The translations under genes and the position numbers were made by a program. Shown in pieces: positions 35,341 through 57,174 of a stretch of 64,000 bases of DNA. The notes below the pieces were generated by a model. That model ran no database searches. It saw only the letters and a list, made by a program, of their open reading frames with translations, and was not told the origin of the DNA. Within the stretch, counting starts at the first letter, position 1. Every line of letters begins with the position of its first letter. Source of the DNA: Dyella sp. OK004 (GTDB lineage: Bacteria; Pseudomonadota; Gammaproteobacteria; Xanthomonadales; Rhodanobacteraceae). The stretch covers positions 515,469 through 579,468 of the forward strand of contig NZ_FOZI01000001.1 in the NCBI RefSeq assembly GCF_900114495.1, given 5' to 3'.

Positions 35341-35349
35341 CTGCGGCTG

Positions 35350-35425
35350 TCGCCGAGGGGCGCTGCGACCGTGGACGGTTTAGCCACGGCCAGGCTCGGC
35401 GGATAGCCTTTGTAACGGCGCCCGG
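35350..35425 (+). ncRNA. S-adenosylhomocysteine (SAH) riboswitch
   Basis: The leader contains CGCCGAGGGGCGCTGCGACC, a variable hairpin (GTGG...CCAC), CCAGGCTCGGCGG and AACGGCGCCCGG. These are the conserved pieces of the SAH-sensing aptamer, including the CCGAG/CTCGG stem and the GGCGC/GCGCC pseudoknot partners. It lies between a TATAAT box and ahcY, the gene these riboswitches normally turn on when SAH accumulates. Confidence 0.93.
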
Positions 35426-35467
35426 TCAACGATGCGACATACCCGTCGCGATCACCGGAGCTACGCC

Positions 35468-36898
35468 ATGAACGCAGTCACCAAAGATTCCGCCACGCAG
35501 GACTTCAAAGTCCGCGATATGTCTCTCGCCGAACTCGGCCGCCGCCGTATCCGCATGGCCGAAGAGGAAATGCCGGGTCTGATGCAGATCCGCGCCCGCT
35601 ACGCCAAGGACCAGCCGCTGAAGGGCGTGCGCCTGTCCGGCTCGTTGCACGTCACCAAGGAAACCGCCGTGCTGGCCGAGACGCTGCGCGCGCTCGGCGC
35701 CTCGGTGCGCTGGGCCTCGTGCAACATCTTCTCCACCCAGGACGACGTGGCCGCCGCATTGGCCGCCGGTGACCTGCCGGTGTTCGCCTGGAAGGGCGAG
35801 TCGCTGGAGGAGTACTGGGAATGCACGCTGGACATGCTGAGCCACCCGGGTGGCCTCGGCCCGCAGCTGATCGTCGACGACGGCGGCGACGCTACCTTGT
35901 TCATCCACAAGGGCGTTGAACTGGAAGATGGCGACAACTGGGTCAACACCCCCAGCGGCAACCACGAAGAGCAGGTGATCAAGGATCTGCTCAAGCGCGT
36001 GCACGCCGAACGTCCGGGCTGGTTCAAGAAGATCGCCGCCGAATGGAAGGGCGTGTCCGAAGAGACCACCACCGGCGTGCATCGCCTGTACCAGATGATG
36101 GAAGCCGGCAAGCTGCTGGTGCCCGCGATCAACGTCAACGACTCGGTCACCAAGTCGAAGTTCGACAACCTGTACGGCTGCCGCGAGTCGCTGGCTGACG
36201 GCATCAAGCGCGCCACCGACCTGATGGTCGCTGGCAAGGTGGCCGTGGTCTGCGGTTACGGCGATGTGGGCAAGGGTTGCGCGCACTCGCTGAAGGGCTT
36301 CGGCGCGCGCGTGATCGTCACCGAGATCGACCCGATCAACGCCCTGCAGGCGGCGATGGAAGGTTTCCAGGTCACCACCATCGAAGACACCCTTGGCTTG
36401 GGTGACATCTATGTCACCACCACCGGCAACAAGGACATCATCACGCTGGAGCATATGGCGGCGATGAAGAACAACGCCCTGGTCTGCAACATCGGTCACT
36501 TCGATAACGAGATCCAGATCGATCGCCTCAACACCGCCAAGGGCGTGACCCGCGAGACCATCAAGCCGCAGGTCGACCGTTACACCTTCCCCACCGGCAA
36601 TAGCATCTACATGCTGGCCGAAGGTCGCCTGGTGAACCTGGGTTGCGCGCATGGCCACCCGAGCTTCGTGATGTCCAACAGCTTCTCCAACCAGACGCTG
36701 GCCCAGCTCGACCTGTGGGCGAACAAGGACAAGTACGAGAAGACCGTGTATCGCCTGCCGAAGAAGCTGGACGAGGAAGTCGCCCGCCTGCACCTGGAGC
36801 AGATCGGCGTGAAGCTGACCAAGCTGACGCCGGAACAGGCCGCTTACATCGGTGTGCCGGTGGAAGGTCCGTACAAGCCGGACCATTACCGCTACTGA
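35468..36898 (+). CDS. ahcY: S-adenosylhomocysteine hydrolase
   Basis: The 476-residue NAD-dependent enzyme splits SAH into adenosine and homocysteine. ATG 35468 with GGAG 7 bases upstream is preferred over an in-frame ATG at 35432 that overlaps the end of the riboswitch. [36 protein letters not shown], the NAD-binding [15 protein letters not shown] and the C-terminal KPDHYRY, completing the neighbour's active site, are all present. The about 40-residue insertion typical of many proteobacterial enzymes accounts for the length. Regulated by the SAH riboswitch. A terminator follows. Confidence 0.98.
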
Positions 36899-40155: not shown

Positions 40156-41073
40156 ATGGCGCAGCAGTATCCCGAATGGATCTGGCAGAACGGCCAGATC
40201 AAGCCCTGGCGCGAAGCCACCACGCATGTGATGTCGCATGCGCTGCACTACGGCTCGTCGGTGTTCGAAGGCATCCGTAGCTATGCCACTCCGGACGGTG
40301 CCGCCATCTTCCGCCTCACCGACCATCTCAAGCGCCTGTACCAGTCGGCCAAGATCTACGACATGGTGCTGCCACATACGCAGGACGAGATCGCTACCGC
40401 CTGTCGCGACGTAATCAAGAAGAACGGCCTTGGCGCCGCGTACCTGCGCCCGGTGGCTTACCGCGGTCTGGGCGGTTTCGGCCTCTCGGCGGAAACACCG
40501 ATCGATGTGGCTGTGGCGGCTTGGCCGATGGGCCCTTATCTCGGGCCGGAGGCACTGGAAAGCGGCATCGACGCCTGCGTGTCGAGCTGGCAGCGCTTTG
40601 CACCCAACACCATTCCGGCGGGCGCCAAAGCCGGTGGCAACTATCTCTCCGGCCAGCTGATCGCACGTGAGGCGCGTCGCCTCGGTTTCGGCGAAGGTAT
40701 TGCGCTGGCCTCCACCGGCCTGCTCAGCGAAGGCGCGGGCGAGAACCTGTTCCTGGTGTTCGACGGCGTACTGCACACCACGCCGGCCAGCGCCTCGATC
40801 CTCACCGGTATCACCCGCCACACGCTGATCACGCTGGCGCGCGAAGACGGCATTGAAGTGATCGAGCGCGATATCCCGCGTGAATTCCTGTATCTCGCTG
40901 ATGAGCTGCTGATGTGCGGCACCGCTGCCGAGATCACCCCGATCCGCTCCGTGGATGGCAAACAAGTTGGCGCCGGCAAGGCTGGGCGCGTCACGCGTCG
41001 CATGCAGGAACTGTTCTTCGGCTTGTTCAACGGCAAGACCAACGATCAGTGGGGCTGGCTGGAGCCGCTGTAA
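40156..41073 (+). CDS. ilvE: Branched-chain amino-acid aminotransferase
   Basis: The 305-residue class IV PLP enzyme interconverts Leu/Ile/Val and their keto acids. WIWQNGQIKPWREATTHVMSHALHYGSSVFEGIRSY begins the fold. The PLP Lys is in AGAKAGGNYLSGQL, followed by EGAGENLFLVFDG and LLMCGTAAEITPIRSVDG. CCGGAG lies before the ATG. Length is exactly that of IlvE proteins. Confidence 0.95.
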   Translation: MAQQYPEWIWQNGQIKPWREATTHVMSHALHYGSSVFEGIRSYATPDGAAIFRLTDHLKRLYQSAKIYDMVLPHTQDEIATACRDVIKKNGLGAAYLRPVAYRGLGGFGLSAETPIDVAVAAWPMGPYLGPEALESGIDACVSSWQRFAPNTIPAGAKAGGNYLSGQLIAREARRLGFGEGIALASTGLLSEGAGENLFLVFDGVLHTTPASASILTGITRHTLITLAREDGIEVIERDIPREFLYLADELLMCGTAAEITPIRSVDGKQVGAGKAGRVTRRMQELFFGLFNGKTNDQWGWLEPL

Positions 41074-41149: not shown

Positions 41150-42445
41150 CTACTCGCTTGCTACCTCCAGCATCCCCGCAGGCTCGACCGCCCGCTCGCC
41201 ACGCGTGACCTGCTCACGCAACAGCTCCATGAAGACACGCTCCAGTGCATCAACCTCATCCAGGCTCATGCACTGCTCCTCGCCAACGTAGACGAAGCGC
41301 AGCCGACCGTGCAACGAAAAGGCCAGGATGCCGAGGACGCGCACGCCGAAGGAGCGCACGGACAGGCTGAATTCCTCCAGATGGAACGGCGCGTCCGGTT
41401 CCAGCAGCTCGATCGATCCCAGGTTGGAAAAGGAAAACTGGTTCCAGTTGCCGTTGCGGCTCAACGCATCGCCGAGCCGCACGATGGAGCGGACCTTGCC
41501 GTCTGAGGGCGGCTTGAGCATCTCGCAGAAGCGGTACTTGTCGGGAATGTCCTGCAGCTCCTGCTCGATCTTCTCGCCCATCTCCCGATAGATGTCCCGC
41601 GCCCGCGCCCATAGATCGGCGCCGCGCTCGCGGCCGACCGCGATCTTGAAGCTACCACCACCGAAGAACAGCGTGTCGTCCTTGAGCAGGGACAACCTGC
41701 CGCGCCGCGCATCAACTGGGCTGTCGATGCGCGTGGGCACCCGCTTGCCCAGCGCCGCCTGCAAGGCTTGATCGAGGATAGCCAGCAACGCCGCATGCAT
41801 CGACACCTGCTCACGTCTGCAGCGGTGCTTCAAGATGGAAGTGAGCGCCGCATCCGCGTGCCATTCCCGCCGCACCGGATCACGGCGCAGCGCCTGGCGC
41901 GAAGGCGGGACCAAGCTGACCAGACCATTGATCGCTGCAGCGACCAGGCGGCGCTTGCGTTCGGCTGAGCTGCGTGACTTGCCGGCGATGTCCAGGGGAC
42001 TGACCGGCGCATAAGGCAACAACGGCTGCTCGCGATGCAATCCGCTCAGCAATTCCTTCGCCACGATCAAAACGCTCATGCCATCGCAGATACGATGCGC
42101 CGCCGTGATCAGCAACAGCCCACCGTGATCTGTGCGCAGCCAGGCCACGCGCAGCTGCGGCTCGTCGAGGGTGAAGGCAGCGGACTCTTCGCGCTCGATT
42201 TCGCGAGCGACATCCTGTTCCGTCGTGCATGTTGCCGTGCGCAATGGCACCGGACCGGCCACATCCAGTTCGTAGTACAACCCGTCGCGCTCTTCGCGCA
42301 TCAGCATGCGTAGTGCCGGATGCTTGCGCTGTACACGGTCCAGCGAGGTGCGCAGGCGCTCCACCGGCAGCGTACCGGTGATGACGAGCCGATACGTGAG
42401 GTTGCCGTCGATCAGGCGTTCGATCGTGGTGAGCTTTCGCTTCAT
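41150..42445 (-). CDS. Condensation-fold (CoA-dependent acyltransferase-like) protein 2 of the NRPS/glycolipid operon
   Basis: The 431-residue soluble protein starts at ATG 42445, 5 bp after the GT2 stop; the frame is open well upstream but overlaps the GT2 gene. The fold resembles NRPS condensation domains and PapA-type acyltransferases: RLIDGNLTYRLVITG at the start, candidate catalytic AHRICDGMS (HxxxDG, with the first His of HHxxxDG replaced by Ala), then DSPVDARRG and FSFSNLGSI, comparable to the latch and DFGWG-region segments. I infer transfer of an acyl chain onto a sugar or the lipid product. It is last in the operon. Confidence 0.75.
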   Translation of the reverse strand: MKRKLTTIERLIDGNLTYRLVITGTLPVERLRTSLDRVQRKHPALRMLMREERDGLYYELDVAGPVPLRTATCTTEQDVAREIEREESAAFTLDEPQLRVAWLRTDHGGLLLITAAHRICDGMSVLIVAKELLSGLHREQPLLPYAPVSPLDIAGKSRSSAERKRRLVAAAINGLVSLVPPSRQALRRDPVRREWHADAALTSILKHRCRREQVSMHAALLAILDQALQAALGKRVPTRIDSPVDARRGRLSLLKDDTLFFGGGSFKIAVGRERGADLWARARDIYREMGEKIEQELQDIPDKYRFCEMLKPPSDGKVRSIVRLGDALSRNGNWNQFSFSNLGSIELLEPDAPFHLEEFSLSVRSFGVRVLGILAFSLHGRLRFVYVGEEQCMSLDEVDALERVFMELLREQVTRGERAVEPAGMLEVASE

Positions 42446-42450
42446 GGCCC

Positions 42451-43416
42451 CTATTCCGCGGCGACCGAAGGGCCGCCGGCGAGCGATCCACCCCGCGCCG
42501 GCATTTTTTTGCAGAACGCGGCGATGTGCGGATGCAGGCTTTCGAACGTGCCCAGTCTCCCCAGGCGTCCATCGATATAGCCGCAGGCTACTGCCAGCAC
42601 CTTGCGAAGTTTTTGCGGCTCGAACAGCAGGACGTTGAGCGACTGGTGCAGCGCCAGCAGGCCACCCAGCCAATGCAGCGCCCAGTGCGCCCGGTACAAA
42701 CGCAGGGTGACAACGCCATTGCGCGCGCCGTAGTAGCGCCGCCAGGCCGGATGATTGGTGGTGAACATGCGACCGTGGCGCTCGATATCGCCGGTGGTCT
42801 GGCGCATCGTTACCGCCGCATTCATATAGACCGGGATGTCCTGACTGTTGGCGCGCAGCCCGTACTCGATGTCGATGTACTCAATGAAATAGTCCTCGCG
42901 GAACGCACCCAGGCGGCGATAGGCCTGTGCAGAAATCGCCGAGCCAGAGGAAATCACGAACAGAGTTTCGAACAGTCCCTCCGTCGGCTCGCTCATCTTT
43001 AATGGCTTGGGCCAGCGTCGCCCGGGCGGCAACACCACCATGAACTTTTCGAGGTTGATCTCGTAGATCTTCGGGCCGAGGATGAATGCCTCGCGTTCCA
43101 TGCGTTCGCAGGCCTGCATCATCGCGCCGAAAAAATTCTCACCGATGTCCGAATCCTGATCGAGCAGGAAGATCACCTCGCAGCCGCGTTCGAGCAGAAT
43201 TTCGGCGCCGCGGTTGTAGGCTCCGGCGAGCCCGCCACGATTGGCGTTGTGCAGCACCGTCGTGCCCTGCTGCCGCAGCACTTCGTAAAGCGCCGGGTTG
43301 GGCTGCGGCGAGTTGTCCACGACGATCAGGTTCTGCGCCACCACCGCTTTGTCCAGATTGCGCAGAAACGCTTCGGTGGGGTGGTAGAGCACGAAGATCA
43401 GGCCGTAGCTTTTCAT
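42451..43416 (-). CDS. Family 2 glycosyltransferase, RhlC-type rhamnosyltransferase-like
   Basis: The 321-residue cytosolic GT-A enzyme begins YGLIFVLYHPTEAFLRNL, then LIVVDNSPQ, ANRGGLAGAYNRGAEI, VIFLLDQDSDIG with the D-x-D-type metal site, ISSGSAISAQAYRRLGAFREDYFIEYIDIEYGLRA, and a hydrophobic C-terminal stretch. This fits the rhamnosyltransferase group that includes RhlC, which adds the second sugar of di-rhamnolipid. Its start overlaps the stop of the upstream acyltransferase by ATGA. The sugar donor is not provable from sequence; no dTDP-rhamnose genes are in the window. Confidence 0.88.
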   Translation of the reverse strand: MKSYGLIFVLYHPTEAFLRNLDKAVVAQNLIVVDNSPQPNPALYEVLRQQGTTVLHNANRGGLAGAYNRGAEILLERGCEVIFLLDQDSDIGENFFGAMMQACERMEREAFILGPKIYEINLEKFMVVLPPGRRWPKPLKMSEPTEGLFETLFVISSGSAISAQAYRRLGAFREDYFIEYIDIEYGLRANSQDIPVYMNAAVTMRQTTGDIERHGRMFTTNHPAWRRYYGARNGVVTLRLYRAHWALHWLGGLLALHQSLNVLLFEPQKLRKVLAVACGYIDGRLGRLGTFESLHPHIAAFCKKMPARGGSLAGGPSVAAE

Positions 43417-44759
43417 AGGCTCTCCGCGGGCAAGGGGATGGCGGCGCCCGTGCCAGAAGCGATCGACGCCGGCAACGTCGCGGCGGCCTGCAGCAGTTCC
43501 ATTGCTAATTGGCGGATCTGCTCCGCTTGTGTGCGCGACAGCGAGCTCTCGTCCGAGATGAAGGCGATATCCAGCCCCTCTGCGAAACCAGCGATGGTGA
43601 TCAGGTTCGCCGGAGTCGGCTCCAGCAAGGCCGAGGGGGCATGAATGGCTTCCAGGCGGAAACTGCCGTAGTTCTGCGCCGGGGCATCCAGACGTCCCAG
43701 ATAGGACAGCGAAACGCTACGACCACTTCGCCGCGAGCGCGAATAGGCAACCAAGCGATCGAACAGCGGGTGTAGCTGCTCAAGGCCGAGCAGTTGCTCA
43801 TAGACCGTTGGCGCCAGGCGATCGATCTTGCGGCGCATGTCTTCGTGCAACGCGCGCGCCAGAGTCCAGAAGTCGGCGCTGCCGGCCTTGGCTTTGCGGC
43901 TGCCAAACGACAGCCGCACGGTCGGTGCCATGGTGAACAGCGCACCGCCTTGCAGCGCCGGCAAGTAGCGGCGCGCGTCGACCGGCGCAACGAATTTGTC
44001 CACGCCGCGAACGCCGCGCACCGACCAGCAGGCCAGCATGAAGGCGGTGCACAAGGCGGCGAACATGCCGACGCCTTCATCCTTGCTGCGCCGGACCAAA
44101 GCCTGCACCGTCGCGGGCTCGATCGACCAGCGCAGGGTATACACCGGACCGTAGCTCAATGGCGGACCGATACGTTGTAAGCGGATCAACCATGTGAAAA
44201 GTGCGGCCTTCCAGCGTGCGCGCCGTTGCAGCCAACGGTCGCCCTGCGCCTCAGGCGGCACCACGTCTGCACCGCTATACAGCGCGAAGCGGCGCCCGAG
44301 TTTGGCCTCGGGGCGACCGCAAACGGTCAGGATGTCCTGCAGCAGCCCCACGGCCGAAAGGCCGTCGCAAATGCAGTGATGGCAACTCAGCAGCACGTCG
44401 CTGCGTCCATCGCCACGTAACCACACCAGCCGGACCAACGGTTCGAGCCGGCCGTCGAACAAGCGCTCGCATTCGAAGCGCGCTTGCTCCTGCCAATCGT
44501 CGTCGCTCTGTCGCTCGACAATGCGTACGGCAATGGGCGGTGGCGTTGCTTGCTGCACGAACCATGGGCGGCCGTCGGAGCCCTGCTCTACCAGGCATTG
44601 CAACACGGCGTGTCTGGCCTGCACTCGGTCCAGGGCAACGCGCAGGTGCGCCTCGTCCAGCGTGCCCGCAAGCGTTGCCGGCAGCACAAATGCCACCGGC
44701 CGCTGGCCGTCGAGATACATGCCTCGCTCAAACAACGCGAAGGGACGCTTTGCCGTCAT
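43413..44759 (-). CDS. Condensation-fold (CoA-dependent acyltransferase-like) protein 1 of the NRPS/glycolipid operon
   Basis: The 448-residue protein carries an intact HHxxxDG motif, SCHHCICDGLSAVGLL, at about residue 125-131, preceded by VALDRVQARHAVLQCLV as in condensation and PapA-type acyltransferase domains. FVAPVDARRYLP and VSLSYLGRLDAP correspond to the later core motifs. It is a stand-alone protein with no carrier or adenylation domain. It overlaps the GT1 gene by 4 bp at one end and the GT2 gene by 4 bp at the other. I infer that it acylates a hydroxyl of the glycosylated product. It and the protein at 41150 are diverged relatives. Confidence 0.78.
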   Translation of the reverse strand: MTAKRPFALFERGMYLDGQRPVAFVLPATLAGTLDEAHLRVALDRVQARHAVLQCLVEQGSDGRPWFVQQATPPPIAVRIVERQSDDDWQEQARFECERLFDGRLEPLVRLVWLRGDGRSDVLLSCHHCICDGLSAVGLLQDILTVCGRPEAKLGRRFALYSGADVVPPEAQGDRWLQRRARWKAALFTWLIRLQRIGPPLSYGPVYTLRWSIEPATVQALVRRSKDEGVGMFAALCTAFMLACWSVRGVRGVDKFVAPVDARRYLPALQGGALFTMAPTVRLSFGSRKAKAGSADFWTLARALHEDMRRKIDRLAPTVYEQLLGLEQLHPLFDRLVAYSRSRRSGRSVSLSYLGRLDAPAQNYGSFRLEAIHAPSALLEPTPANLITIAGFAEGLDIAFISDESSLSRTQAEQIRQLAMELLQAAATLPASIASGTGAAIPLPAESL

Positions 44760-46075
44760 GCCACGCTCCGTTCCTTTCCTTGGGACACTTCAACGACATC
44801 GGGTTCGCCGAGCAGGCCCCAGCGCCGCAGATGACGCAGAGCCTCGCCCACGCCGTCTTCGGCACGTACCGCCCGACCCAGCGCCTCTGCTTCCTGCATC
44901 ATGGATGGCTGCTGCATCGCGGCCAGCGCTGTCGCCAGGACATTCGCATCAAGATGCTCGCGGTCCAGTGCAGGCGGCGCCACGCCACGGCGCTGCAAGC
45001 AGCGCGCCCAGAACGGCTGATCGCCGTAGAACGGCACGACGGCTGAAGGAATACCCGCACGCACTGCCGCGGCCGTAGTGCCCGCGCCGCCGTGATGCAT
45101 GGCGCCGGCCATGCGCGGGAAGAGCCAATCGTGCGGCGCCTGACGCAGCCCAAAGATCTGTTCGTCCAGCGCTCCTTCGGCGATCTCCAGTCCACCCCAG
45201 CCGGCCGCGAGCACCGCACGCCGGCCGCTCTTGCGCACCCCTTCCAGCACGATGCGGGTGAACGCCGCAGCCTGATTGCTGACCATGCTGCCGAAGCCGA
45301 TATAGACCGGCTTCGGCCCTGCGGCGAGGAAGTCGCCGAGGTCGGCCGGCGGGGTCCATGCCGGCGGATCGAAAAACCAGTAGCCGGTGACCTGGGAGCT
45401 GTCAGGCCAATCTGCCGGCCGCGCCAGTACGTGCCGACTGAAGCCGTTGATCACCTTCGCGTCCAGCGCCATGCGCCCGAGATAAGGACCGTGCCAGGGA
45501 TAGCGAGGCAGGCCCAGCCGCGGCCGCACGATGTCGTTGATCGCCGGATGCATCACATGCCACACCAGCAGATACAGCAAGTGATGTGCTGCAAGGCTGA
45601 GCGCGCCGGGCAAGCGTTCGCGCGAACCACTCAGCACCATGGGCGGCAATAAACGCGAAGGGGTCAGCGGCTGCAGCCGGGCGATCGCGAACGGCACTCC
45701 GCATCGTTCGGACAGCGCCTTGGCCAGCAAGGTGCTATTGCTCACCCCGATCAGCAGGCCGGCGTTCTCGCTCGCCGCCAGTCCTTCGTCGACCCAGTGC
45801 ACGGCCCATTGCGCGTAGCGTTCGCGAAAGATGCGCGCCATCGCACGCAGGTTCAGACCCTGATCGGCGATGCTGCGGTCGGCCTCCAGCATGGCCTGGA
45901 AATCGGCGGTCAATGGGAAGAATTCCAGACCCGCCTCACGCACCAGCGCGGCGAAGTTGCTGCTGGTCGCGATACGCACCGGATAGCCCGCGCGACGTAG
46001 CCCTTGTCCCAATGCCACGCAGGGCCGCACATCACCCTGAGTGCCGATAGTGAAGATCACGATGGGTTTATGCAT
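44756..46075 (-). CDS. GT1/GT28-type glycosyltransferase (UDP-glucosyl/rhamnosyl transferase-like)
   Basis: The 439-residue GT-B enzyme has an N-terminal acceptor domain, IVIFTIGTQGDVRPCVALGQGLRRAGYPVRIATS, and a C-terminal donor domain with VYIGFGSMVSNQ and MHHGGAGTTAAAVRAGIPSA followed by PFYGDQPFWA, the nucleotide-sugar signature. It resembles lipid and sterol glucosyltransferases and, functionally, RhlB, which adds the first sugar to a lipid acceptor. It starts 11 bp after the NRPS stop and overlaps the next gene by ATGA. I infer that it glycosylates the lipo-amino acid released by the NRPS. Confidence 0.88.
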   Translation of the reverse strand: MHKPIVIFTIGTQGDVRPCVALGQGLRRAGYPVRIATSSNFAALVREAGLEFFPLTADFQAMLEADRSIADQGLNLRAMARIFRERYAQWAVHWVDEGLAASENAGLLIGVSNSTLLAKALSERCGVPFAIARLQPLTPSRLLPPMVLSGSRERLPGALSLAAHHLLYLLVWHVMHPAINDIVRPRLGLPRYPWHGPYLGRMALDAKVINGFSRHVLARPADWPDSSQVTGYWFFDPPAWTPPADLGDFLAAGPKPVYIGFGSMVSNQAAAFTRIVLEGVRKSGRRAVLAAGWGGLEIAEGALDEQIFGLRQAPHDWLFPRMAGAMHHGGAGTTAAAVRAGIPSAVVPFYGDQPFWARCLQRRGVAPPALDREHLDANVLATALAAMQQPSMMQEAEALGRAVRAEDGVGEALRHLRRWGLLGEPDVVEVSQGKERSVA

Positions 46076-46086
46076 GGCCGGCCCGC

Positions 46087-49000
46087 TCAGGCATACACCG
46101 CAGCGAGGTCCTGCTGCGCTGACGGCAGTACCGGCAGGCGCTCATCCAGGATGTCGGACAGACGGTGCCGCAAGACCGTCCCGATCTGTGCCGCCGGCGC
46201 GGGATCCAATACCGCCTCGTGGTGGCATGCCAGCTCGCGCACTTCGATACGCCGTCCGATGAAGGCGCGCCACGCCGAGGGGCGATGATCGAGGATGCCA
46301 TCCAGGTCGCCTTCGCTCTCGGTCGCGTGGAAATAGAGCAGATCCAGATCCACCCTGTGCGGCGCGTATTGCCGCGCCAGTTCCAGGTTGTTGCGCATTA
46401 CCGCGAACAAGTGCTCGATAAATTGCGGATGGCTCTTGATGACTTCCTGCACGAGCGGGATCGAACGGGCGTTGTAGCTGTGCAGTAGCAGAGCGGCCAG
46501 CTCCTTGAGGGTCTGCGGCGCGTTCTCGCGCACGTGCTCATGCAAGCCGAGGAAACTCAGAGCAGCACGCACCTCCTTGGCCTCTTCGCGCGGCCGAGAG
46601 CGCTCGCCTGCGGCAAACAGGTAGCTGTCGATCATGGCCAGCAGCTCCACTCTCTCACCCATCGCCAGCAATTGCTCAGCCATGGCGTGGCCGATCAGGC
46701 CGCCCAGCGAACGCCCAACCAGACGGTACGGCCCTTGCGGCTGGATGCGCTGGATCTGCGCCAGGTAATCCGCCGCCACCTCCTCGATGCTGCCCGGCAA
46801 ACGCATGTCTCCGCGCAGACCGCGTGACTGCAGGCCATACACCGGCACGGCGGGATCGAGGTGGCGCAACAGGCTGGAGAAGCCCAGGCTGAGACCTATC
46901 ATGGGGTGGATACAGAACAACGGCCGCGGCTGCGCTTTGCTGACCTCGCGCAATTTGGGCGGCGCGCGCAACACCAGCATCTCACCCAGTGGATCGTTGT
47001 GCCCGCCGCTGAGCCGCTCGACGAAGACCGCCAGACTGGCCACGGTGGAGGCTTCGAACAGGCTGCCCAAGGGCAGCTCCATGCCGAACTCCTCGGGGAA
47101 GCTCGCCACCATCTCGACGGCGGTCAGCGAGTCTCCGCCAAGTTCGAAGAAATTGTCGTGCAGGCCCACCCGCTCGACACGCAACAGGCGTTGCCACAAC
47201 CCGGCCAATTTGTGCTCGACTGGCGTGCCCGGCTCAACGAATGTGGTACGGGCGACACGGTCTGGCGTCGGCAGCGCGCGACGATCGAGCTTACCGTTGG
47301 GTGTCAGCGGCATAGCGTCCAGTACGGTGAAACTGCCCGGCAGCATATGCTCCGGCAGCCAGCGGCCCAGAAACACGCGGAGCTGATCAATATTCAGATT
47401 AGAAGCTTCGCGTGGCACGACATAGGCGGCCAGCACCACGGTGCCATGGGCGTCGCGCGGTGCAGTCACCGCCGCCGCCGCGATCGCAGAGTGCTGGGCC
47501 AGCAAGTTTTCGATCTCACCCAGTTCGACGCGATGACCACGAATCTTCACCTGGGTGTCGGCGCGTCCGATGAATTCGAGCAGCCCGTCGTCGCGCCAAC
47601 GCACCAGATCGCCTGTGCAATACATGCGGCTGCCGTCAACAGCGAAGGGATCGAGCGGAAAGCGTTCTTCGGTCAGCTGCGGGCGACGCAGATAGCCCTT
47701 GGCCACCCCGGCCCCGCCGATGCACAGCTCGCCGACGGCGCCCGTTACCACCGGCCGCCGTGCGGCATCGACAACGTACAGGCGAGTGTTGAGGATAGGG
47801 CGTCCGATCGGTGGTGTGCCGGAACCGATCTCCTCCAGTTCGTAGGCCGTAGACCACACTGTCGTTTCGGTGGGACCGTAGAACTGAGTCACCCGCGCCG
47901 CAGCAGCCTTGAGCCGTGCGGCGAGCTCCGCGCCGAGGGCCTCGCCGCCGACCAGCGCGTGCACATGTGCCAGGCGGGTTTCCGGACTGGCCAGCAAGAT
48001 GCGCCATAGCGAGGGCGTAGCCTGCACATGCGTGACGCCGCTGCGCTGGATCAGCCGCGCCAGTTCCAGCGGCTGCTGTGCAGCGCCGCTGCCTGCCATC
48101 ACTACACAGGCACCCACCATGAGCGGCAAATACAGCTCGAGTCCCGCGATGTCGAAGATCACCGTAGTAACAGCGAGGAAGCGGTCGCTGACCGCGGGCT
48201 TGAGCTGTTGCATCATGCCCTGCAGAAAGTTGGCCAGATTGCCGTGCGTCACCTCCACACCCTTGGGGCGGCCAGTCGAACCGGAGGTGTAGAGCACATA
48301 GGCGACACCATCGAGCTGGCTGAAATCCAGTTCGTCCCGCTGTTCCAACGCGACTGTGTCGAATTGCTCCGGCAACAGCCGTGCCATGCCCCCCATGGTC
48401 AGGCGTTCATGGATCTCGCCAGTAGCGATCAAGGCGATCGGCGCGGCATCGTCCAGCACCATGGCGATGCGCTCGGCCGGGCCGTCCGGGTCGATCGGCA
48501 AATAGGCCGCGCCGGCGTGCATGACGGCCAGCAGCACGACCAACAGCTGCTCGCTGCGCGGCAGCGCCACTGCAACGATGTCGCCGGGCTCGATGCCATC
48601 GGCGATCAACTGTTGTGCCTGGCGCAGGCTGTGCTGGCGCAGTTCGCGATAGCTCAACACGATGTCGCCAAAGATCACCGCGGGCGCGTCGGGCGTCAGC
48701 ACAGCCTGCCGCGCGACCCGCGCCGGCAAGCTGTGCGGCTCGACCGGCCCGGCCGTGTCATTCCACGCTACCAACAGGCGATGCCGCTCGTCCTCGCCCA
48801 GCAGATCGATCTGTTGCAAAGGCAAGGATGGATCAGCCAGCACGCCTTCGATCAGGCGGCACAGGCGCCGGCGGTGCTCATCCAGCTCTTCCATGTCGTA
48901 CAGCAGCGGATTGGCGTCCAGGTCAAACCGCAGGCCGGAATCAGTGCCGCGGTCATAGACGAACACCATCAGGTCTTCCGCCGAACTGTTCGACAAGTTG

Positions 49001-50112
49001 TGCGATACCGTGCCGGCGCCGGCGAAATCGAGCTGGTAGTCGAAAGGCTCGATATTGATCCCCAACCAGGCCACGCTGCGCCCCTGGCCGACCTGCGCAA
49101 GATCGCGGCGCAAGTCTTCGTAGCGGTACTGTTGATGGCGCAGCGCCTGACGCACCACGCGCGACACTTGTTCGAATAGCTGGGCGGCCGTCATGTCCGG
49201 CGCGAACTGCAGGCGGATCGCCACCACATTGGCGAACATCCCCGGCGCCTGACGCGTTGCGGCGTTGAGCCGTGCCGACACAGGCATGCCGAAAACCAGG
49301 TCGTCGGCGCCGGTGACGCGGTGGTAGTACGCCGCTACCAGGCCGATCAAAACCTGCGGCAGGCTCGCGCTTGTTGTCTTGCCCAGCTCTCTGAGCCGCC
49401 TCGTAGCCTCCGGCGACAGGTAACCCGTGCTGCGACACAGGCGGTCGCCCAGGCCTGGACGCTGGTGGCGACGCGACAGGGTGACTGCCTCAGGCAGTCC
49501 GGCCAGTTGCTCCATCCAGTACTCGCGGTCGCGGCGGAAGCGGTCCGAGTTGCGGTACGCGGCTTCCATCTCGACGGCAGTCGCTGCGGGACTGAACTCG
49601 CACGGCGCAGGCTCGCGTCCTTCCACCAGCGCCGTGTACAGCTCTGCTAGGCGCCGCGCCAGAAGTCCTCCACCGTAGCCATCCAGCACGATGTGATGCG
49701 CACGCTGGTACCAGATGTGGCAATCGTCGGCCAGCTTGAACAGGACGCTAGCCCACAGCGGGTCCTGCGCCAGGTCCGGATTCTGCGAAAACTCATCTTG
49801 CATCCATGCTTCGGCGGCGGCGCGCGGATCGGCCTCACCGCTCATGTCGAAGAATGGGAAGTCGCCCGGATAAACCGGACGGATCACCTGTCTCGGCTTG
49901 CCGTCGCGCTCGACGATGTTCGTGCGCATCATCTCGGCTTCGTCGACGAGGCTATGCAGCGCTTGGCGGAACAGCCCAGGCTCGACCGGCCCGCAGATTT
50001 CCACGGCCTCGGCGATATTCATGATGGCGCCGCCGGCGCCGATTTTGTTGTTCACCCATAGGCCGCGCTGGGCGATCGTCAAAGGCAGAGTATTGTCACG
50101 TTCGTCATTCAT
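46087..50112 (-). CDS. Single-module non-ribosomal peptide synthetase (C-A-T-TE), predicted to load glycine
   Basis: This is a 1341-residue synthetase. ATG 50112 has GGGGG upstream; the frame is open 57 bases further. Condensation domain 8-440: HHIVLDG at 139-145. Adenylation 465-950: LYTSGSTGRPKG (607-618), FYGPTETTVW (744-753), YCTGDLVRW (831-839), GRADTQVKIRGHRVELGEIE (849-868), NGKLDRRALP. Carrier: LGGDSL with Ser995. Thioesterase from 1065: GRSLGG with Ser1135 and a candidate His near 1297. Specificity positions read D654 I655 L658 Q697 L720 G722 F744 V752 W753 K941, close to the glycine code DILQLGLIWK. Domain order equals EntF and SwrW, where an acyl donor is joined to one amino acid. 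No MbtH or PPTase is adjacent. First gene of the operon. Confidence 0.95.
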   Translation of the reverse strand: MNDERDNTLPLTIAQRGLWVNNKIGAGGAIMNIAEAVEICGPVEPGLFRQALHSLVDEAEMMRTNIVERDGKPRQVIRPVYPGDFPFFDMSGEADPRAAAEAWMQDEFSQNPDLAQDPLWASVLFKLADDCHIWYQRAHHIVLDGYGGGLLARRLAELYTALVEGREPAPCEFSPAATAVEMEAAYRNSDRFRRDREYWMEQLAGLPEAVTLSRRHQRPGLGDRLCRSTGYLSPEATRRLRELGKTTSASLPQVLIGLVAAYYHRVTGADDLVFGMPVSARLNAATRQAPGMFANVVAIRLQFAPDMTAAQLFEQVSRVVRQALRHQQYRYEDLRRDLAQVGQGRSVAWLGINIEPFDYQLDFAGAGTVSHNLSNSSAEDLMVFVYDRGTDSGLRFDLDANPLLYDMEELDEHRRRLCRLIEGVLADPSLPLQQIDLLGEDERHRLLVAWNDTAGPVEPHSLPARVARQAVLTPDAPAVIFGDIVLSYRELRQHSLRQAQQLIADGIEPGDIVAVALPRSEQLLVVLLAVMHAGAAYLPIDPDGPAERIAMVLDDAAPIALIATGEIHERLTMGGMARLLPEQFDTVALEQRDELDFSQLDGVAYVLYTSGSTGRPKGVEVTHGNLANFLQGMMQQLKPAVSDRFLAVTTVIFDIAGLELYLPLMVGACVVMAGSGAAQQPLELARLIQRSGVTHVQATPSLWRILLASPETRLAHVHALVGGEALGAELAARLKAAAARVTQFYGPTETTVWSTAYELEEIGSGTPPIGRPILNTRLYVVDAARRPVVTGAVGELCIGGAGVAKGYLRRPQLTEERFPLDPFAVDGSRMYCTGDLVRWRDDGLLEFIGRADTQVKIRGHRVELGEIENLLAQHSAIAAAAVTAPRDAHGTVVLAAYVVPREASNLNIDQLRVFLGRWLPEHMLPGSFTVLDAMPLTPNGKLDRRALPTPDRVARTTFVEPGTPVEHKLAGLWQRLLRVERVGLHDNFFELGGDSLTAVEMVASFPEEFGMELPLGSLFEASTVASLAVFVERLSGGHNDPLGEMLVLRAPPKLREVSKAQPRPLFCIHPMIGLSLGFSSLLRHLDPAVPVYGLQSRGLRGDMRLPGSIEEVAADYLAQIQRIQPQGPYRLVGRSLGGLIGHAMAEQLLAMGERVELLAMIDSYLFAAGERSRPREEAKEVRAALSFLGLHEHVRENAPQTLKELAALLLHSYNARSIPLVQEVIKSHPQFIEHLFAVMRNNLELARQYAPHRVDLDLLYFHATESEGDLDGILDHRPSAWRAFIGRRIEVRELACHHEAVLDPAPAAQIGTVLRHRLSDILDERLPVLPSAQQDLAAVYA

Positions 50113-50729
50113 CGCATTACCCCCTGCAGCCGCCATCGCCGCACGCATCCGCTGCGCCGCGAAAAACAACCGCTACTACCGGCTGTATTTGCCCGGACCG
50201 TGGATTTGCTTTGGCCGGGAATCGCGCTCATAACTGCGGCCGAACGAAGCCGCCCTGGCCGATATCGGCCAAGTTTCAAAATCCTGCCTGTTACTGTTTT
50301 CTTGATGCACGCAGCCGCCCGCGCCGCTGCCGTTCAACCGTCGGCATTAGCCAAGACTGGTCGCTGGATAGCTACTCGACAACGGAACGGGGATTCCGCC
50401 TTGCGTAAATGGAGATACGCCAGAACAAAGGCCCTAACCGCTCTCGATAGCGAGTGTCTATGCCAGGCCCGGAGCTTGTCCATTGGGGCAAATGTGCGTC
50501 GAATCACACTTTGTGCAACGCAGCAGTATTTGTTTCTCGAAATGCGAAATTAATGGCGAAATATTCGTCAATGACGAATCAAATCAATACACGCGATTTT
50601 CATTAGCATGAAATTCACGTCAAGAAATACATTATCTCAACGCATTAACAGATCGAACATGAAATGCCTGTCAAGCGATTAATGCATTTCAAAGACACAT
50701 ACGCCCGGCGTATCGCATCGGGCGAAACA
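50113..50729. promoter_or_regulatory. AT-rich upstream region of the NRPS operon with a 17-bp palindrome
   Basis: There is no gene in 617 bp. Base composition turns AT-rich at about 50500-50700, against the GC-rich surroundings. ATTCGTCA-A-TGACGAAT at 50563-50579 is a perfect 8+8 palindrome. On the minus strand a TTGACG (50618-50623) and GAAAAT (50596-50601) 16 bp apart form a weak promoter candidate. The palindrome would then lie just downstream of the start site. Confidence 0.45.
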
Positions 50730-52013
50730 TTATTGAAATACGATGCTAGCAACGGCGCCATTGGTGTCGGCGCGCGGACGCATGGATACGTCCCAACCAT
50801 AGAGTTCGCATAGGCGGCGCACAATCGCCAGGCCAAGACCCGCACCGCTGCCGCCCGCGCCTTCGCCGCGCACGCCACGCTGGAATAGGCGCTCGGCATC
50901 TTCCGGCTTGATGCCGGGGCCGGTGTCGATGATGTCGATGCGATCCTTTTCCACCTTCACCGTCACCGTGCCTTCGAGCGTGTACTTGATGGCATTACCG
51001 ATCAGGTTGGTGAGCGCTACTGACAGCACGGACGCGGGTGCGTTGACGCTCAGCGGCCCGTGCACGATGAGCTCAACCTCTAGCGGCTTGTCGCGCATCT
51101 GCGGACGCTGGCTTTCGATGACGTCCGACGCGACCTTGGCGACATCGGTGGTTTCGCCGCGCGTAGGGCCGCGGCGCTCCGCACGCGACAGCAGCAGCAA
51201 TGCCTCGATCATCTCGGTGGCCTGGCGCGAAGCGCGCTCGATGCGCTTGAGGCGCTCACGCAGCTTGTCGGTGAGATCGGGCGAGCCTTGCAGCAATTCC
51301 GTGGTGCTGGCGATCACTGCCAGCGGCGTGCGCAATTCATGGCTTACATCGGAGTTGAACTCCCGATCGCGCTCGACCATGGCGGTGAGGCGGGTGGAGT
51401 ATTCGTCCAGCGCCAGTGCCAGCTCGCCGACTTCGTCGTCGGCGAAATGCGGTGCCAGCGGTTCGGCCTTGCCATTCTTGCGGAAGTGACGCAGGCGCTC
51501 CGCCAGTTGCGTCACCGGCTTGAGCACCTTGCGTGACAGCCAGAGGCCAAGTGCAAGCGACAGCAGGCCGAACAGGAAGACTGCACCGACAACGGCGAGC
51601 AGCAGTTGCTGCTTGCCCAGGTCATCCCGCGAGACGTCGTAGCGCAGGAAGCCGATGACGCCGTCCTTGCGTCGCACCGCCAGCTTGTAGTGATGGGTCT
51701 TGCCGTCGTCGCCTGCCTCGAAAACATCGTGCACACCCGTGTCCAGGTTCTGCCAGGACAACGGCATCTTGTAGAGCGTGCGCTCGCTCTTGACCCACGC
51801 CTCCATCATGCGCGAGTGCGGCGGCTCATCGGGATGGTTGATAGCTTGATCGACCGACTGGTCGATGTCCTGCTGCAGGGACGAGGATATGAGCTGATCT
51901 TCTACCCTCGAACGAATATCCAACGAGGCTACGGCGAACAACGCGCTGAGGCCGAAACCGAACAGCGCGAAGCTCAGGACCAGACGAAAACGAAGCTTAC
52001 GCCTGGACCGCAT
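50730..52013 (-). CDS. Two-component sensor histidine kinase
   Basis: The 427-residue kinase has transmembrane helix 1 (LRFRLVLSFALFGFGLSALFAVASL), a periplasmic sensor of about 115 residues, helix 2 (LLLAVVGAVFLFGLLSLALGLWL), HAMP, a HisKA domain with SDVSHELRTPLAV (phospho-His), and HATPase with NLIGNAIKYT, DTGPGIKPED and GAGLGLAIVRRL. The sensor part is not a family I recognise. Its start overlaps the response regulator by 17 bp, so they form one operon. The kinase faces the NRPS region, but transcription is independent, and regulation of that operon by this pair is not shown. Confidence 0.93.
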   Translation of the reverse strand: MRSRRKLRFRLVLSFALFGFGLSALFAVASLDIRSRVEDQLISSSLQQDIDQSVDQAINHPDEPPHSRMMEAWVKSERTLYKMPLSWQNLDTGVHDVFEAGDDGKTHHYKLAVRRKDGVIGFLRYDVSRDDLGKQQLLLAVVGAVFLFGLLSLALGLWLSRKVLKPVTQLAERLRHFRKNGKAEPLAPHFADDEVGELALALDEYSTRLTAMVERDREFNSDVSHELRTPLAVIASTTELLQGSPDLTDKLRERLKRIERASRQATEMIEALLLLSRAERRGPTRGETTDVAKVASDVIESQRPQMRDKPLEVELIVHGPLSVNAPASVLSVALTNLIGNAIKYTLEGTVTVKVEKDRIDIIDTGPGIKPEDAERLFQRGVRGEGAGGSGAGLGLAIVRRLCELYGWDVSMRPRADTNGAVASIVFQ

Positions 52014-52683
52014 CCGGCTCGACCATGCGATATCCGATACCGTGCCGCGTATGGATCAGCGGCTTGTCAAAAGGTTTGTCGATCGCCGCACGCAAGCCAT
52101 GGATGTGCACGCGCAGGCTGTCGCTGTCGGGCAATTCCTCACCCCATACGCGCTGCTCCAGATCCTGTCGTGTGACGACCGAGGGGCTGGCTTCCATCAG
52201 AGCCTGCAGCAACTTCAGGCCGATCGGGTTGAGCTGGATCGACTTGCCTTCACGGGAGACGGTCAAGGTGTCCAGGTTGTAGGTGAGATCGGCCACTTTC
52301 AGCACGCGGCTCTGCGGACCCTTGCCACGGCGCGCCAGCACTTCCAGACGCGCTGCCAGTTCCTGCAGGGCGAATGGCTTGGTCATGTAGTCGTCGGCGC
52401 CAGATTCGAAGCCGGTGAGCTTCTGCTCCAGCGCGTCGCGCGCGGTCAGCATCAGCACCGGAGTCTGCTTGTGCGCCTCGTGACGCAGCTTGCGCGCTAC
52501 GTCCAGGCCGTCCATGCCGGGCAAAGTGAGATCCAGCACGATCACATCGAAATCGTGAACTACCGCAAGGTGCAGCCCGGTCACGCCGTCACCGGCGAAA
52601 TCGACCACGTGGCCGCGATCTTCCAGGTAATCACCGATATTGGTAGCGATATCGCTGTTGTCTTCGATCACTAGTACGCGCAT
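51997..52683 (-). CDS. OmpR/PhoB-family response regulator
   Basis: The 228-residue regulator has a receiver domain (VLVIEDNSDIA, phospho-Asp in VIVLDLTLPGMDGLD near residue 52, TARD, Lys in MTKPFA) and a winged-helix DNA-binding domain (IGLKLLQALMEASPSVVTRQDLEQRVWG, RVHIHGLRAAIDKP, IGYRMV). It is partner of the overlapping kinase. Target genes cannot be read from the sequence. Confidence 0.95.
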   Translation of the reverse strand: MRVLVIEDNSDIATNIGDYLEDRGHVVDFAGDGVTGLHLAVVHDFDVIVLDLTLPGMDGLDVARKLRHEAHKQTPVLMLTARDALEQKLTGFESGADDYMTKPFALQELAARLEVLARRGKGPQSRVLKVADLTYNLDTLTVSREGKSIQLNPIGLKLLQALMEASPSVVTRQDLEQRVWGEELPDSDSLRVHIHGLRAAIDKPFDKPLIHTRHGIGYRMVEPDAVQA

Positions 52684-54475: not shown

Positions 54476-54735
54476 AACGTCGGCGGATGGTAACCCGGGA
54501 CCTGCGGGGTTTGGAACCATCCCCTGCCGGCGGCAATGCTTTGCCGCCGCTGAGGCGCGACCTAATGCGTGGTGAACCGGACATGGCGGCTGGCTGAATC
54601 ATGCCGCCGGCGCAGCGGGTCAGCATGCGCTGTACGGAAAATCGCATGCGCATAATCGGGCCGTCAGCGCCCGGCACCCCACGCACGTTTCTCCGGGCGA
54701 ACCTTGTCAAATGCATCGCGTCCATGGAGCACGTC

Positions 54736-57174
54736 ATGCGTATCTCTTCCCGCACTCTGCGCGCCCTGCCGCTGCTGGCCACTTCGCTGCTGTTCTGCGC
54801 GGCCGGCTTGGCGCAGGCACAACAGACCGATAACGGCGCCGGCGACCCGCCTTCGCGTGTTGCACGTCTTTCCTATATGTCCGGCGATCTTGGCCTGCTT
54901 CCCGCCGGCGCCAAGGAGTGGAGCGACGCCAGCGTCAATCGCCCGCTGACCACCGGCGACCGTCTTTCCACCGGCCCGGGCGCCCGGGCCGAACTGGAAC
55001 TGGGCGGCGGCAGCCTGCGCATGGCGGAAGGCAGCGATTTCGGTTTTCTCGATCTCAATGACCAGGTGGCCCAAGTCGAACTGACTCAGGGCTCGCTCAA
55101 TCTCGCCGTGCGCAATCTGGGCCAGGGGCAGAGTTACGAAATCGACACACCCACCGTGGCCCTGGTGGTCAATCAGCCCGGCACCTTCCGCGTGGACGTC
55201 GACCGTGACGGCCGCACCACGGAAGTCACCGCGTTCCGCGGTCACGCCATGGTTTATGGCGAGAACAACGCACAGCGCCAAGTAGATGCCGGTACGCGCT
55301 ATGAGTTTGCCGACTCCTCTCTCAATAACGTGACGCTCAACGATATCGGTAGCCGCGGCGATGCTTTCGATGACTGGAGCTATCAGCGCGATCAGCGCTA
55401 CGAGCAGTCACCCAGCCGCCGCTACGTATCGGAAGAAGTGGTGGGTTACCAGGATCTGGACAACAACGGCGACTGGCGCGACGACCCCGACTACGGCGCC
55501 GTCTGGTACCCCTCTCACGTCGCGGTCGACTGGGCGCCCTACCGCACCGGCCACTGGGCCTATGTGGCGCCGTGGGGCTGGACCTGGGTGGACGACTCGC
55601 CGTGGGGCTTCGCGCCTTACCACTACGGCCGTTGGGCCTATGTGCGCGACGCCTGGGGCTGGGTGCCAGGGCCGATCGCGGTGCGTCCGGTATATGCGCC
55701 AGCGCTGGTCGCCTTCGTCGGCGGCAACAACTGGAGCGTGTCGATCGGCATCGGCGGCGGTGCGCCGGTGGGCTGGTTCCCGCTGGGACCGCGCGAGGTC
55801 TACAACCCGTGGTACCGCGCCAGCCGCAACTACTACACCAACGTCAACGTCACCAATATCAACGTCCACAACACCTATAACCGCACCACGGTCATCAACA
55901 ACATCAACAACCAGTACAACTATTTCCGCAACGGGCAACCGCAGCCGCGCATGGCCTATGCGAACCGCGACGCGCCCCGCGGCCTGACTGCGGTATCTGG
56001 ACAGAATTTCGCTTCGGCGAAGAATGTGCAGCGCAACCTGATGCACGTCGATCCGCACCAGCTGGCTGCGGCGCCGGTGCTGCCGCGAGGCATCGCCATC
56101 CGTCCGAATCAGGCCAGCTTTGCACCGCCGCGCAACCCGCAGGCGAGGCCGCTGCCGGCGGCTGGCTTCCAGCGTGAGGTGGTGGCCCGTCGCGCGCCGC
56201 CCCCCAGCGCCGCGACGCGCCCGTTGGGCGGACCGGATAATGCACGCCCCAACCGCTTCGAGCGTCCGACGGCCGTTGCCGCACCCACCAACGTGCGCTT
56301 GCTCAATACGCAGCCAAATCCCGGACGTCCCGCACTAGGCAACGCTGCACCGGCGCCCGGCAATGTAGCCACGGTGCCAGCACGCCTGCCGCCAGTGGGT
56401 AATCGTCAGATGCCCAACACGGCCGCACTGCCGCCCGCCGCCAACGCAGCAGACCTGCGCCGCGCCGAAGACGCCGCCGGCAACCGTCCGAGCATGCGCC
56501 CGAACGAACTGCCTTCGGCACGCTTTGCTCACCCGAATGCCAACCAGGACGTAGCCGGGCGCGAAGCCGTGCCGAATCGTGGCGACCGCACTCCGCCGCC
56601 ACAGAACCAGGCACCGCGACCGGGCGTGAGTTATATCCCCAATGCGCAGGAAAATCGTGCCCGTGCGGCGCAACAGGCCGCCCAGGCCCAGCCGCGGGGC
56701 ACCCTGCCCGACGTGCCGCATTACAACCACGCACAGGACAATCCGCAGGCCCGCAACCCGCAGTTGGAAAACATTCCCGGGCAGAACATGCCCGACAGGA
56801 GCCGGCCCGCTCCCGCCGTGCCGCGCAACGAGCCAGTGCCGCAGCCTCGCGGTCGGGATATGGGCAATGCTGCCCCTATTGAGAACCAGCGCATCGACCG
56901 CCCGGCGCCGCGTCCGGCCTATCAGGCTCAGCAGCAGCGCCCCGAACCGCAGCCGCGCGTGGAACAGGCCCCGCAGCGAGTGGAGCCGCCGATGCCGCGC
57001 ATGCGCGAACCGCAGCCCCAACCCCAACCCCGCGCCTACCAGCCGCCGCCACCGCCGCCGCGTCCACAACCCATGCCGCAGAACAACCCGCAACCTCGCG
57101 AGCAGCCGCATAACAACCCACCGCCGAATCGCGATGAACACCGTCCCCACAACAAGGACGAACAACACAACTGA
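54736..57174 (+). CDS. Exported FecR-domain/DUF6600 protein with long disordered Pro/Arg/Gln tail
   Basis: The 812-residue protein starts at ATG 54736, with GGAG upstream; signal peptide RALPLLATSLLFCAAGLAQA-Q. A FecR-like domain follows at about 50-200 (RVARLSYMSGDLGLLPAG, DRLSTGPGARAELELGGGSLRM, QSYEIDTPTVALVVNQPGTFRV). A DUF6600-like segment with repeated W-x-PYR-x-GHW / WTWVDDSPWGFAPYHYGRW occupies about 245-370, then a stretch rich in Asn (YYTNVNVTNINVHNTYN). The last about 360 residues are low-complexity Pro/Arg/Gln/Asn. It is not next to a FecI sigma factor, so it is unlikely to be a standard anti-sigma. Location should be periplasm or surface. Confidence 0.82.
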   Translation: MRISSRTLRALPLLATSLLFCAAGLAQAQQTDNGAGDPPSRVARLSYMSGDLGLLPAGAKEWSDASVNRPLTTGDRLSTGPGARAELELGGGSLRMAEGSDFGFLDLNDQVAQVELTQGSLNLAVRNLGQGQSYEIDTPTVALVVNQPGTFRVDVDRDGRTTEVTAFRGHAMVYGENNAQRQVDAGTRYEFADSSLNNVTLNDIGSRGDAFDDWSYQRDQRYEQSPSRRYVSEEVVGYQDLDNNGDWRDDPDYGAVWYPSHVAVDWAPYRTGHWAYVAPWGWTWVDDSPWGFAPYHYGRWAYVRDAWGWVPGPIAVRPVYAPALVAFVGGNNWSVSIGIGGGAPVGWFPLGPREVYNPWYRASRNYYTNVNVTNINVHNTYNRTTVINNINNQYNYFRNGQPQPRMAYANRDAPRGLTAVSGQNFASAKNVQRNLMHVDPHQLAAAPVLPRGIAIRPNQASFAPPRNPQARPLPAAGFQREVVARRAPPPSAATRPLGGPDNARPNRFERPTAVAAPTNVRLLNTQPNPGRPALGNAAPAPGNVATVPARLPPVGNRQMPNTAALPPAANAADLRRAEDAAGNRPSMRPNELPSARFAHPNANQDVAGREAVPNRGDRTPPPQNQAPRPGVSYIPNAQENRARAAQQAAQAQPRGTLPDVPHYNHAQDNPQARNPQLENIPGQNMPDRSRPAPAVPRNEPVPQPRGRDMGNAAPIENQRIDRPAPRPAYQAQQQRPEPQPRVEQAPQRVEPPMPRMREPQPQPQPRAYQPPPPPPRPQPMPQNNPQPREQPHNNPPPNRDEHRPHNKDEQHN

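Follow-up and report, generated by a model that had tools for sequence, protein, structure and literature searches.

A nonribosomal peptide synthetase operon of Dyella that may build an elaborated relative of the glycine-glucolipid

Single-module nonribosomal peptide synthetase (NRPS) genes with the order condensation, adenylation, peptidyl carrier protein, thioesterase (C-A-PCP-TE) were described by Royer et al. (2013) under the name 'short NRPS'; each overlaps the gene of a glycosyltransferase, and their hosts are Xanthomonas albilineans (XALc_0364/0365, XALc_1145/1144) and Alcanivorax borkumensis (ABO_1784/1783/1782) (PMC3849588). In its passages on these loci, the paper gives a starter C domain, a glycine signature for XALc_0364 and a predicted glycine-beta-hydroxyacid-sugar molecule; it leaves the Xanthomonas genes without a product as of 2013, and beside the Alcanivorax NRPS it names a glycosyltransferase and a phosphopantetheinyl transferase (PPTase), and no acyltransferase. 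The terms biosurfactant, acyltransferase and glucolipid are absent from it. A. borkumensis SK2 produces the glycine-glucolipid, reported as glucosyl-tetra(3-hydroxyacyl)-glycine; in the relevant sections of the report, its authors speculate that glycine comes first and glucose last, on the strength of a free trimeric and several tetrameric (3-hydroxyacyl)-glycines (PMC10684412). The complete pathway was called not elucidated in the part of a 2023 paper that proposes the RhlB-like ABO_1783 as a candidate (PMC10710537). ABO_1784/1783 would be the natural candidate for glycine-glucolipid synthesis, and this link may already be in print (Cui et al. 2022). Is there a comparable system elsewhere? 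Here we analyse an operon of Dyella sp. OK004 in a 64,000-nucleotide stretch of contig NZ_FOZI01000001.1 (the window), where five minus-strand genes at 41150-50112 encode, in order, an NRPS, a glycosyltransferase (GT1), a condensation-fold protein (AT1), a second glycosyltransferase (GT2) and a second condensation-fold protein (AT2).

The operon is best read as an elaborated pathway of the glycine-glucolipid type, and with a probability of about two in three it makes a diglycosylated, O-acylated relative of that lipid. It has in common with the loci of Royer et al., as far as these are described, the single C-A-PCP-TE module, the starter C domain, the glycine signature (XALc_0364) and a glycosyltransferase directly 3' of the NRPS. 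In X. albilineans the glycosyltransferase gene overlaps the NRPS by 4-8 bp, whereas an 11-bp gap separates them here; Alcanivorax has an adjoining PPTase gene and the window operon none; and a second glycosyltransferase and acyltransferases, both present here, find no mention in the description of those loci. The glycine-glucolipid itself, as described for strain SK2, combines an acyl chain, glycine and a glycosidic sugar, as predicted for the product of the window, but it carries one glucose and four ester-linked 3-hydroxy acids, whereas the window has two sugar-transfer and two acyltransferase-like genes. An earlier interpretation of the window (the sequence-only reading) had taken the product of the operon as probably undescribed. 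This fails for the NRPS-glycosyltransferase pair, which is already known from Xanthomonas and A. borkumensis through Royer et al. (PMC3849588), and stands for the extension by GT2 and acyltransferase genes, which was not found in the open-access literature searched. The new part is a second glycosyltransferase with up to four dedicated acyltransferase-like genes, extra decorating enzymes that appear to be undescribed. If so, a glycine-glucolipid-type operon exists in non-marine bacteria, and its natural versions of two to seven genes form a genetic series in which each chemical group may be assigned to a gene.

The coordinates are collected in Table 1. The five genes with their domains and tight junctions, as first proposed, were confirmed from open reading frames (ORFs), Pfam and NCBIfam: NRPS and GT1 are 11 bp apart, GT1-AT1 and AT1-GT2 each share an ATGA overlap of 4 bp, and 5 bp lie between GT2 and AT2. 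Two starts were corrected. For the NRPS, ATG 50112 is the most likely start in place of TTG 50169, because AGGGGG precedes this ATG and it aligns in 5/5 Dyella sequences. AT2 probably starts at ATG 42445, the site used by several homologues; the 507-aa ORF is over-long, since upstream of this ATG it reads through the GT2 gene in a different frame.

Table 1. Features of the operon and its surroundings in the window
Feature	Position	Strand	Basis or remark
NRPS, single module C(starter)-A(Gly-type pocket)-T-TE	46087..50112	-	1341 aa from ATG 50112; Pfam, structure matches, 26 homologues
GT1, GT-B glycosyltransferase of sterol-glucosyltransferase/GtfB type; proposed first sugar	44756..46075	-	Pfam, PDB
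AT1, stand-alone condensation-fold protein (PapA-like); proposed O-acyltransferase	43413..44759	-	Pfam, 8s6l profile match
GT2, RhlC-like family-2 glycosyltransferase; proposed second sugar	42451..43416	-	TIGR01556 below cut-off
AT2, second condensation-fold protein; proposed O-acyltransferase	41150..42445	-	431 aa from ATG 42445
Leader/promoter region of the operon	50113..50729	-	Blocks conserved in five Dyella; no operon gene
Two-component system, flank outside the pathway	50730..52683	-	Sensor kinase 50730-52013, response regulator 51997-52683
ilvE, flank outside the pathway	40156..41073	+	Marks the insertion site together with the kinase

What would the NRPS join? Pfam gives it Condensation, AMP-binding, PP-binding and Thioesterase domains. 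Compared with solved structures, its C domain scores 298 bits with the starter C domain of RzmA, 200 with CDA C1, 184 with ObiF1 and 159 with EntF; with the first two ranking highest, it is by sequence of the starter type. The best single-stretch match of the A domain is 5u89 (443 bits), which we take to be DhbF, whose first module presumably takes glycine; the second A domain of LgrA, presumably specific for glycine as well, scores 331.7 bits against 275.3 for the first. At positions anchored by motif the binding pocket is DILQVGFVWK, and we assume both these positions and its reading as glycine. Such a reading fits Royer et al. (2013), and the A domain is of a predicted Gly-type specificity. 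Motifs and trees were evaluated on 26 of 29 rows, the two pieces of locus L084 and L087 being left out. The pocket D-I-[LV]-Q-x-G-x-[VI]-W-K is found in 23 of these 26 full-length homologues, HHxxxDG in 25, and the T-domain GGDS and the Ser, Asp and His of the TE domain in all 26. In L084, a metagenome-assembled genome (MAG), the NRPS is split over two frames.

The two glycosyltransferases differ in kind. GT1 has the Pfam domains Glyco_transf_28 and EryCIII-like_C, and matches best in the PDB a sterol 3-beta-glucosyltransferase (E 8e-47), and also GtfB. It lies directly 3' of the NRPS in the window and in 28/28 compared loci covering both genes. In the rows retained for the conservation analysis (GT1 27/31, GT2 29/30, AT1 25/27, AT2 35/36), 117 residues of GT1 and 73 residues of GT2 are invariant. 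GT2 had no solved-structure match at the limits used. A GT1 homologue (47%) in genome G624 lies beside an ORF judged by eye to be PPTase-like, with no NRPS in the stretch examined.

AT1 is a Pfam Condensation protein that matches the profile of PDB 8s6l over 426/439 positions, and its H128, D132 and G133 are invariant in 25/25 rows; the HxxxD motif is invariant in the 25 AT1 and 35 AT2 rows. Both proteins share the fold of PapA and other condensation-fold acyltransferases. The AT genes number up to four per operon, fall into two positional clades in two phyla and flank GT2.

From these parts a pathway can be proposed. The starter C domain would draw on the fatty-acid pool for a (3-hydroxy)acyl-CoA or -ACP and condense its acyl chain with T-domain-bound glycine. 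The TE domain would free the N-acylglycine, probably by hydrolysis, since lactone formation would leave no 3-hydroxyl for a sugar. GT1 would place the first sugar, probably glucose, on the 3-hydroxyl, and GT2 would attach a second, possibly deoxy, sugar, around which step AT1 and AT2 would each acylate a single hydroxyl position of the sugars. Such a product would probably serve as an amphiphilic lipid of the envelope or as a surfactant. An acyl chain on glycine, bearing sugars and further acyl groups, was already the chemistry of the sequence-only reading, and it is well supported, as a prediction, by the starter C domain, the Gly-type pocket, the two glycosyltransferases and the two condensation-fold proteins. 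It drew its comparisons from EntF, SwrW and RhlB/RhlC. As a model, the glycine-glucolipid of A. borkumensis is closer than EntF, SwrW or RhlABC; the EntF/SwrW domain layout and the Rhl glycosyltransferase pair stay as shared features.

Could the condensation-fold proteins act on the lipid and not on the sugars? Condensation folds are able to make esters, and in the known glycine-glucolipid four 3-hydroxyacyl units form an ester chain, by a pathway called not elucidated as a whole. AT1 and AT2 might then esterify 3-hydroxyacyl units to one another into an oligoester tail, like the four 3-hydroxy acids in A. borkumensis, with no acylation of sugar. This we consider rather improbable. The neighbours that the account of Royer et al. 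gives for the Alcanivorax NRPS include no acyltransferase, and seven genomes of the family carry NRPS-GT1 with no AT gene in the stretch examined. Moreover, AT genes flank GT2 and are fused to it in two MAGs, and in the compared loci they occur only alongside GT2, a weak point as GT2 had served to find most of these loci.

Several observations weigh against sugar acylation and against a diglycosylated acyl-glycine product. The fold nearest to AT2 is 8s6l, titled a dehydratase (AzeD), so that a condensation fold is no proof of acyl transfer. GT2 scores 163.2 bits with the rhamnosyltransferase model TIGR01556, below its cut-off of 200.55, and is thus outside RhlC as curated. Glycine is not universal, because the pocket is DVLQAGLVYK in 3/26 homologues, all Lysobacter, and DILW[VI]GLVLK in five two-gene NRPS-GT1 loci (L116, L117, L119, L120, L121), whose NRPS perhaps takes another amino acid. 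Neither an exporter nor a PPTase is among the operon genes, and none of them accounts for an oligo-3-hydroxyacyl chain as in Alcanivorax. The genes and their domains are observed directly, as are the intact state of the catalytic motifs and the conservation of gene order, and the product is predicted from them; the putative orthology with ABO_1784/1783 follows the description in Royer et al. (2013). The acidobacterial loci below all come from MAGs except two Granulicella.

A different substrate for the C domain has also to be weighed. MxcG and EntF are the top whole-protein NCBIfam matches of the NRPS, and on their logic the C domain would take an aryl acid, giving a glycosylated, acylated aryl-glycine or a siderophore-like molecule. 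Yet the scores are far under the cut-offs (MxcG 755 against 2300 bits, EntF 648 against 2400), which places the protein outside both equivalogs, and the C domain is closer to the RzmA and CDA starter domains than to EntF. The operon contains no 2,3-dihydroxybenzoate ligase or aryl carrier gene; its genes were scanned, and the earlier statement that they include no rhlA and no siderophore starter gene was borne out. A siderophore-type locus (L106), with AMP-ligase, isochorismatase-carrier and NRPS, looks quite different, and in the Frateuria defendens genome (G020, 330 contigs) the one Condensation-domain gene is the NRPS of this operon. The siderophore reading was rejected as very unlikely.

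SwrW has, we assume, the same domain order as the window NRPS, and the catalytic residues of the TE domain are intact; might TE then cyclise two 3-hydroxyacyl-glycine units to a serratamolide-like dilactone, with the sugars going onto another acceptor? Glycine has no side-chain hydroxyl, and the dilactone would use both 3-hydroxyls and leave GT1, which follows the NRPS in every compared locus covering both, without an acceptor, so this reading was rejected too, its chance being slim at best. Decay or silencing of the operon in the genus has next to no credibility: GT1 is disrupted in D. silvatica (L067, whose genus code differs from the window's) and the NRPS is split in L084, but all five window genes are open and under purifying selection, with a coding signal beyond chance (pairwise dN/dS of 0.09-0.18 with D. 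subtropica, the closest to the window at this locus, and of 0.13-0.19 with another congener), and the operon is present in 5/6 genomes searched within the window's genus. In L067 (5097-6195) the two parts of GT1 lie in different frames, and the match lacks a stretch between them.

Other known systems resemble the operon in part. RhlB and RhlC are likewise a GT-B enzyme followed by an RhlC-kind GT2 on a lipid acceptor, a likeness by type; the rhamnolipid system has RhlA, where the window has an NRPS, plus acyltransferases. RhlA was absent from the five operon genes and the scanned neighbours, the rest of the genome not having been searched for it. The mycobacterial PapA proteins are condensation-fold acyltransferases as AT1 and AT2 may be, although these score 33.7 and 18.8 bits, far below the curated PapA5 cut-off of 396. 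Glycopeptidolipid clusters also combine NRPS, glycosyltransferases and acyl transfer, while the window has a single-module NRPS, no MmpL and an unrelated host. The glcABC operon of Rouxiella badensis is alike in being bacterial and in turning glucose into a surfactant by acylation, but unlike in its GNAT, PlsC and HAD families, with no NRPS and no glycosyltransferase in the account given of it (PMC12299268).

How widely is the operon distributed? A scan of 84,980 species genomes for GT2 with two short peptide patterns, which is not exhaustive, gave 29 loci, 26 of this operon type; 23 of these show the NRPS and three end before it. The hosts are Dyella, Frateuria, Luteimonas and Lysobacter, and Edaphobacter, Granulicella, Bryobacterales and other Acidobacteriota. 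The comparison took in 31 loci chosen by NRPS or GT2 likeness, without L088 (no NRPS) and L091 and L092 (distant GT2 only) from the scan, without L064-L066 (same genomes as L052-L054) and without the copies L056, L058, L061 and L118. The same gene order had been suggested as something to seek in other genomes, and strand and order are constant in 31/31 loci (Dyella, Frateuria, Luteimonas, Lysobacter, Acidobacteriota) if extra or missing AT or acylase genes are allowed. The general order is NRPS, GT1, an optional penicillin-acylase-like gene, none to two AT1 genes, GT2 and none to three AT2 genes; one locus has NRPS-GT1 only. The penicillin-acylase-like gene (PF01804) follows GT1 in 5/28 compared loci covering GT1 (D. 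silvatica, D. tabacisoli, Frateuria, L. panaciterrae and genome G011; L057, L058/L075, L067, L069, L071) and is missing from the window operon, thus the core can do without it; a PF01804 protein is encoded at another place in the window genome. Candidate exporters of the product come after acidobacterial operons: an ABC-2 exporter (L074 15026-16558 by Pfam; L086 12319-13853 by likeness) or a major facilitator superfamily pump (L084 12322-13548 by Pfam).

Within the family of the window, GT1 is found at 56% or above in 18/197 genomes and at 33-35% in two more. In the stretch examined, five of the 18 have the five-gene form, two the same plus acylase, two NRPS-GT1-acylase-GT2, two NRPS-GT1-GT2-AT2 and seven NRPS-GT1 only. 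GT1 was found in 1/369 genomes of a class sample, the window itself (E 1e-100), and in 2/398 of a phylum sample, the window and one GT1 without NRPS (E 1e-75), with no further NRPS-GT1 pair in either. Twelve other class genomes have NRPS matches at E 1e-165, and 0/9 loci examined showed a GT1 relative; a plasmid search with the NRPS gave matches all under 60% identity. The F. defendens genome paper reports one nonribosomal peptide cluster (PMC4956451). The operon as a source of the antimicrobial activity of this species was dropped, for the relevant part of one paper names 4-quinolinecarboxaldehyde and hydroxymethylfurfural (PMC7020481), and a term search of another found no cluster (PMC9067460). 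In their parts on gene clusters, genome papers on Dyella and Edaphobacter refer to NRPS clusters generally or not at all.

Is the operon inherited as a unit? In the NRPS tree the Dyella of the window groups with Acidobacteriota (100/99), and a single Xanthomonadales clade is rejected (approximately unbiased test, p 0.003), in a test whose group was chosen after the first tree was seen, whose outgroup is distant and which left out L057. GT1 likewise joins Dyella, Acidobacteriota and three Lysobacter (100/100, midpoint-rooted). By contrast, GT2 places Dyella with other Xanthomonadales except G011 (99/99), and AT2 does so except for the three Lysobacter of the GT1 grouping (99, quick tree); AT1 leaves its placement unsettled. 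The disagreement of NRPS/GT1 with GT2/AT2 speaks against a clean one-step transfer between phyla, a reading that was rejected. The differing trees therefore suggest a mosaic in which operon genes would have moved between Xanthomonadales and Acidobacteriota in at least one exchange, its direction unsettled. More tentatively, and with odds we would put well below even, these operons may make polyacylated envelope glycolipids on acyl-glycine, a tunable class that spans phyla: the NRPS-GT1 core would be fixed and yield a glycosylated N-acylglycine, and an exchangeable AT1-GT2-AT2 block (0 to 4 acyltransferases, largely position-specific) would set the number of acyl chains, like late lipid A acyltransferases, core and block having different tree histories and recombining between the two groups.

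A core two-component system and ilvE border the insertion site of the cassette. In the operon-less congener G004 the matches to the kinase and ilvE are 63 bp apart, where the window has 9.66 kb of operon and leader, and in G024 they are 194 bp apart with the NRPS-GT1 pair on another contig. The two-component system was rejected as pathway regulator: in all 7/7 genomes of the family that were searched the kinase is present (54-82% identity), with or without the operon beside it, which leaves co-regulation at most a possibility. The leader is AT-richer than the operon (GC 0.522 against 0.647), and its one promoter-like match, at 50623-50596, does not exceed chance (2 matches in the region, 1.6 expected). 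Elsewhere in the window, an S-adenosylhomocysteine riboswitch (Rfam RF01057, 62.4 bits) lies directly upstream of S-adenosylhomocysteine hydrolase (35349-36898, plus strand), and 54601-57174 (plus strand) encodes a FecR/DUF6600 protein whose proline-rich tail is very long.

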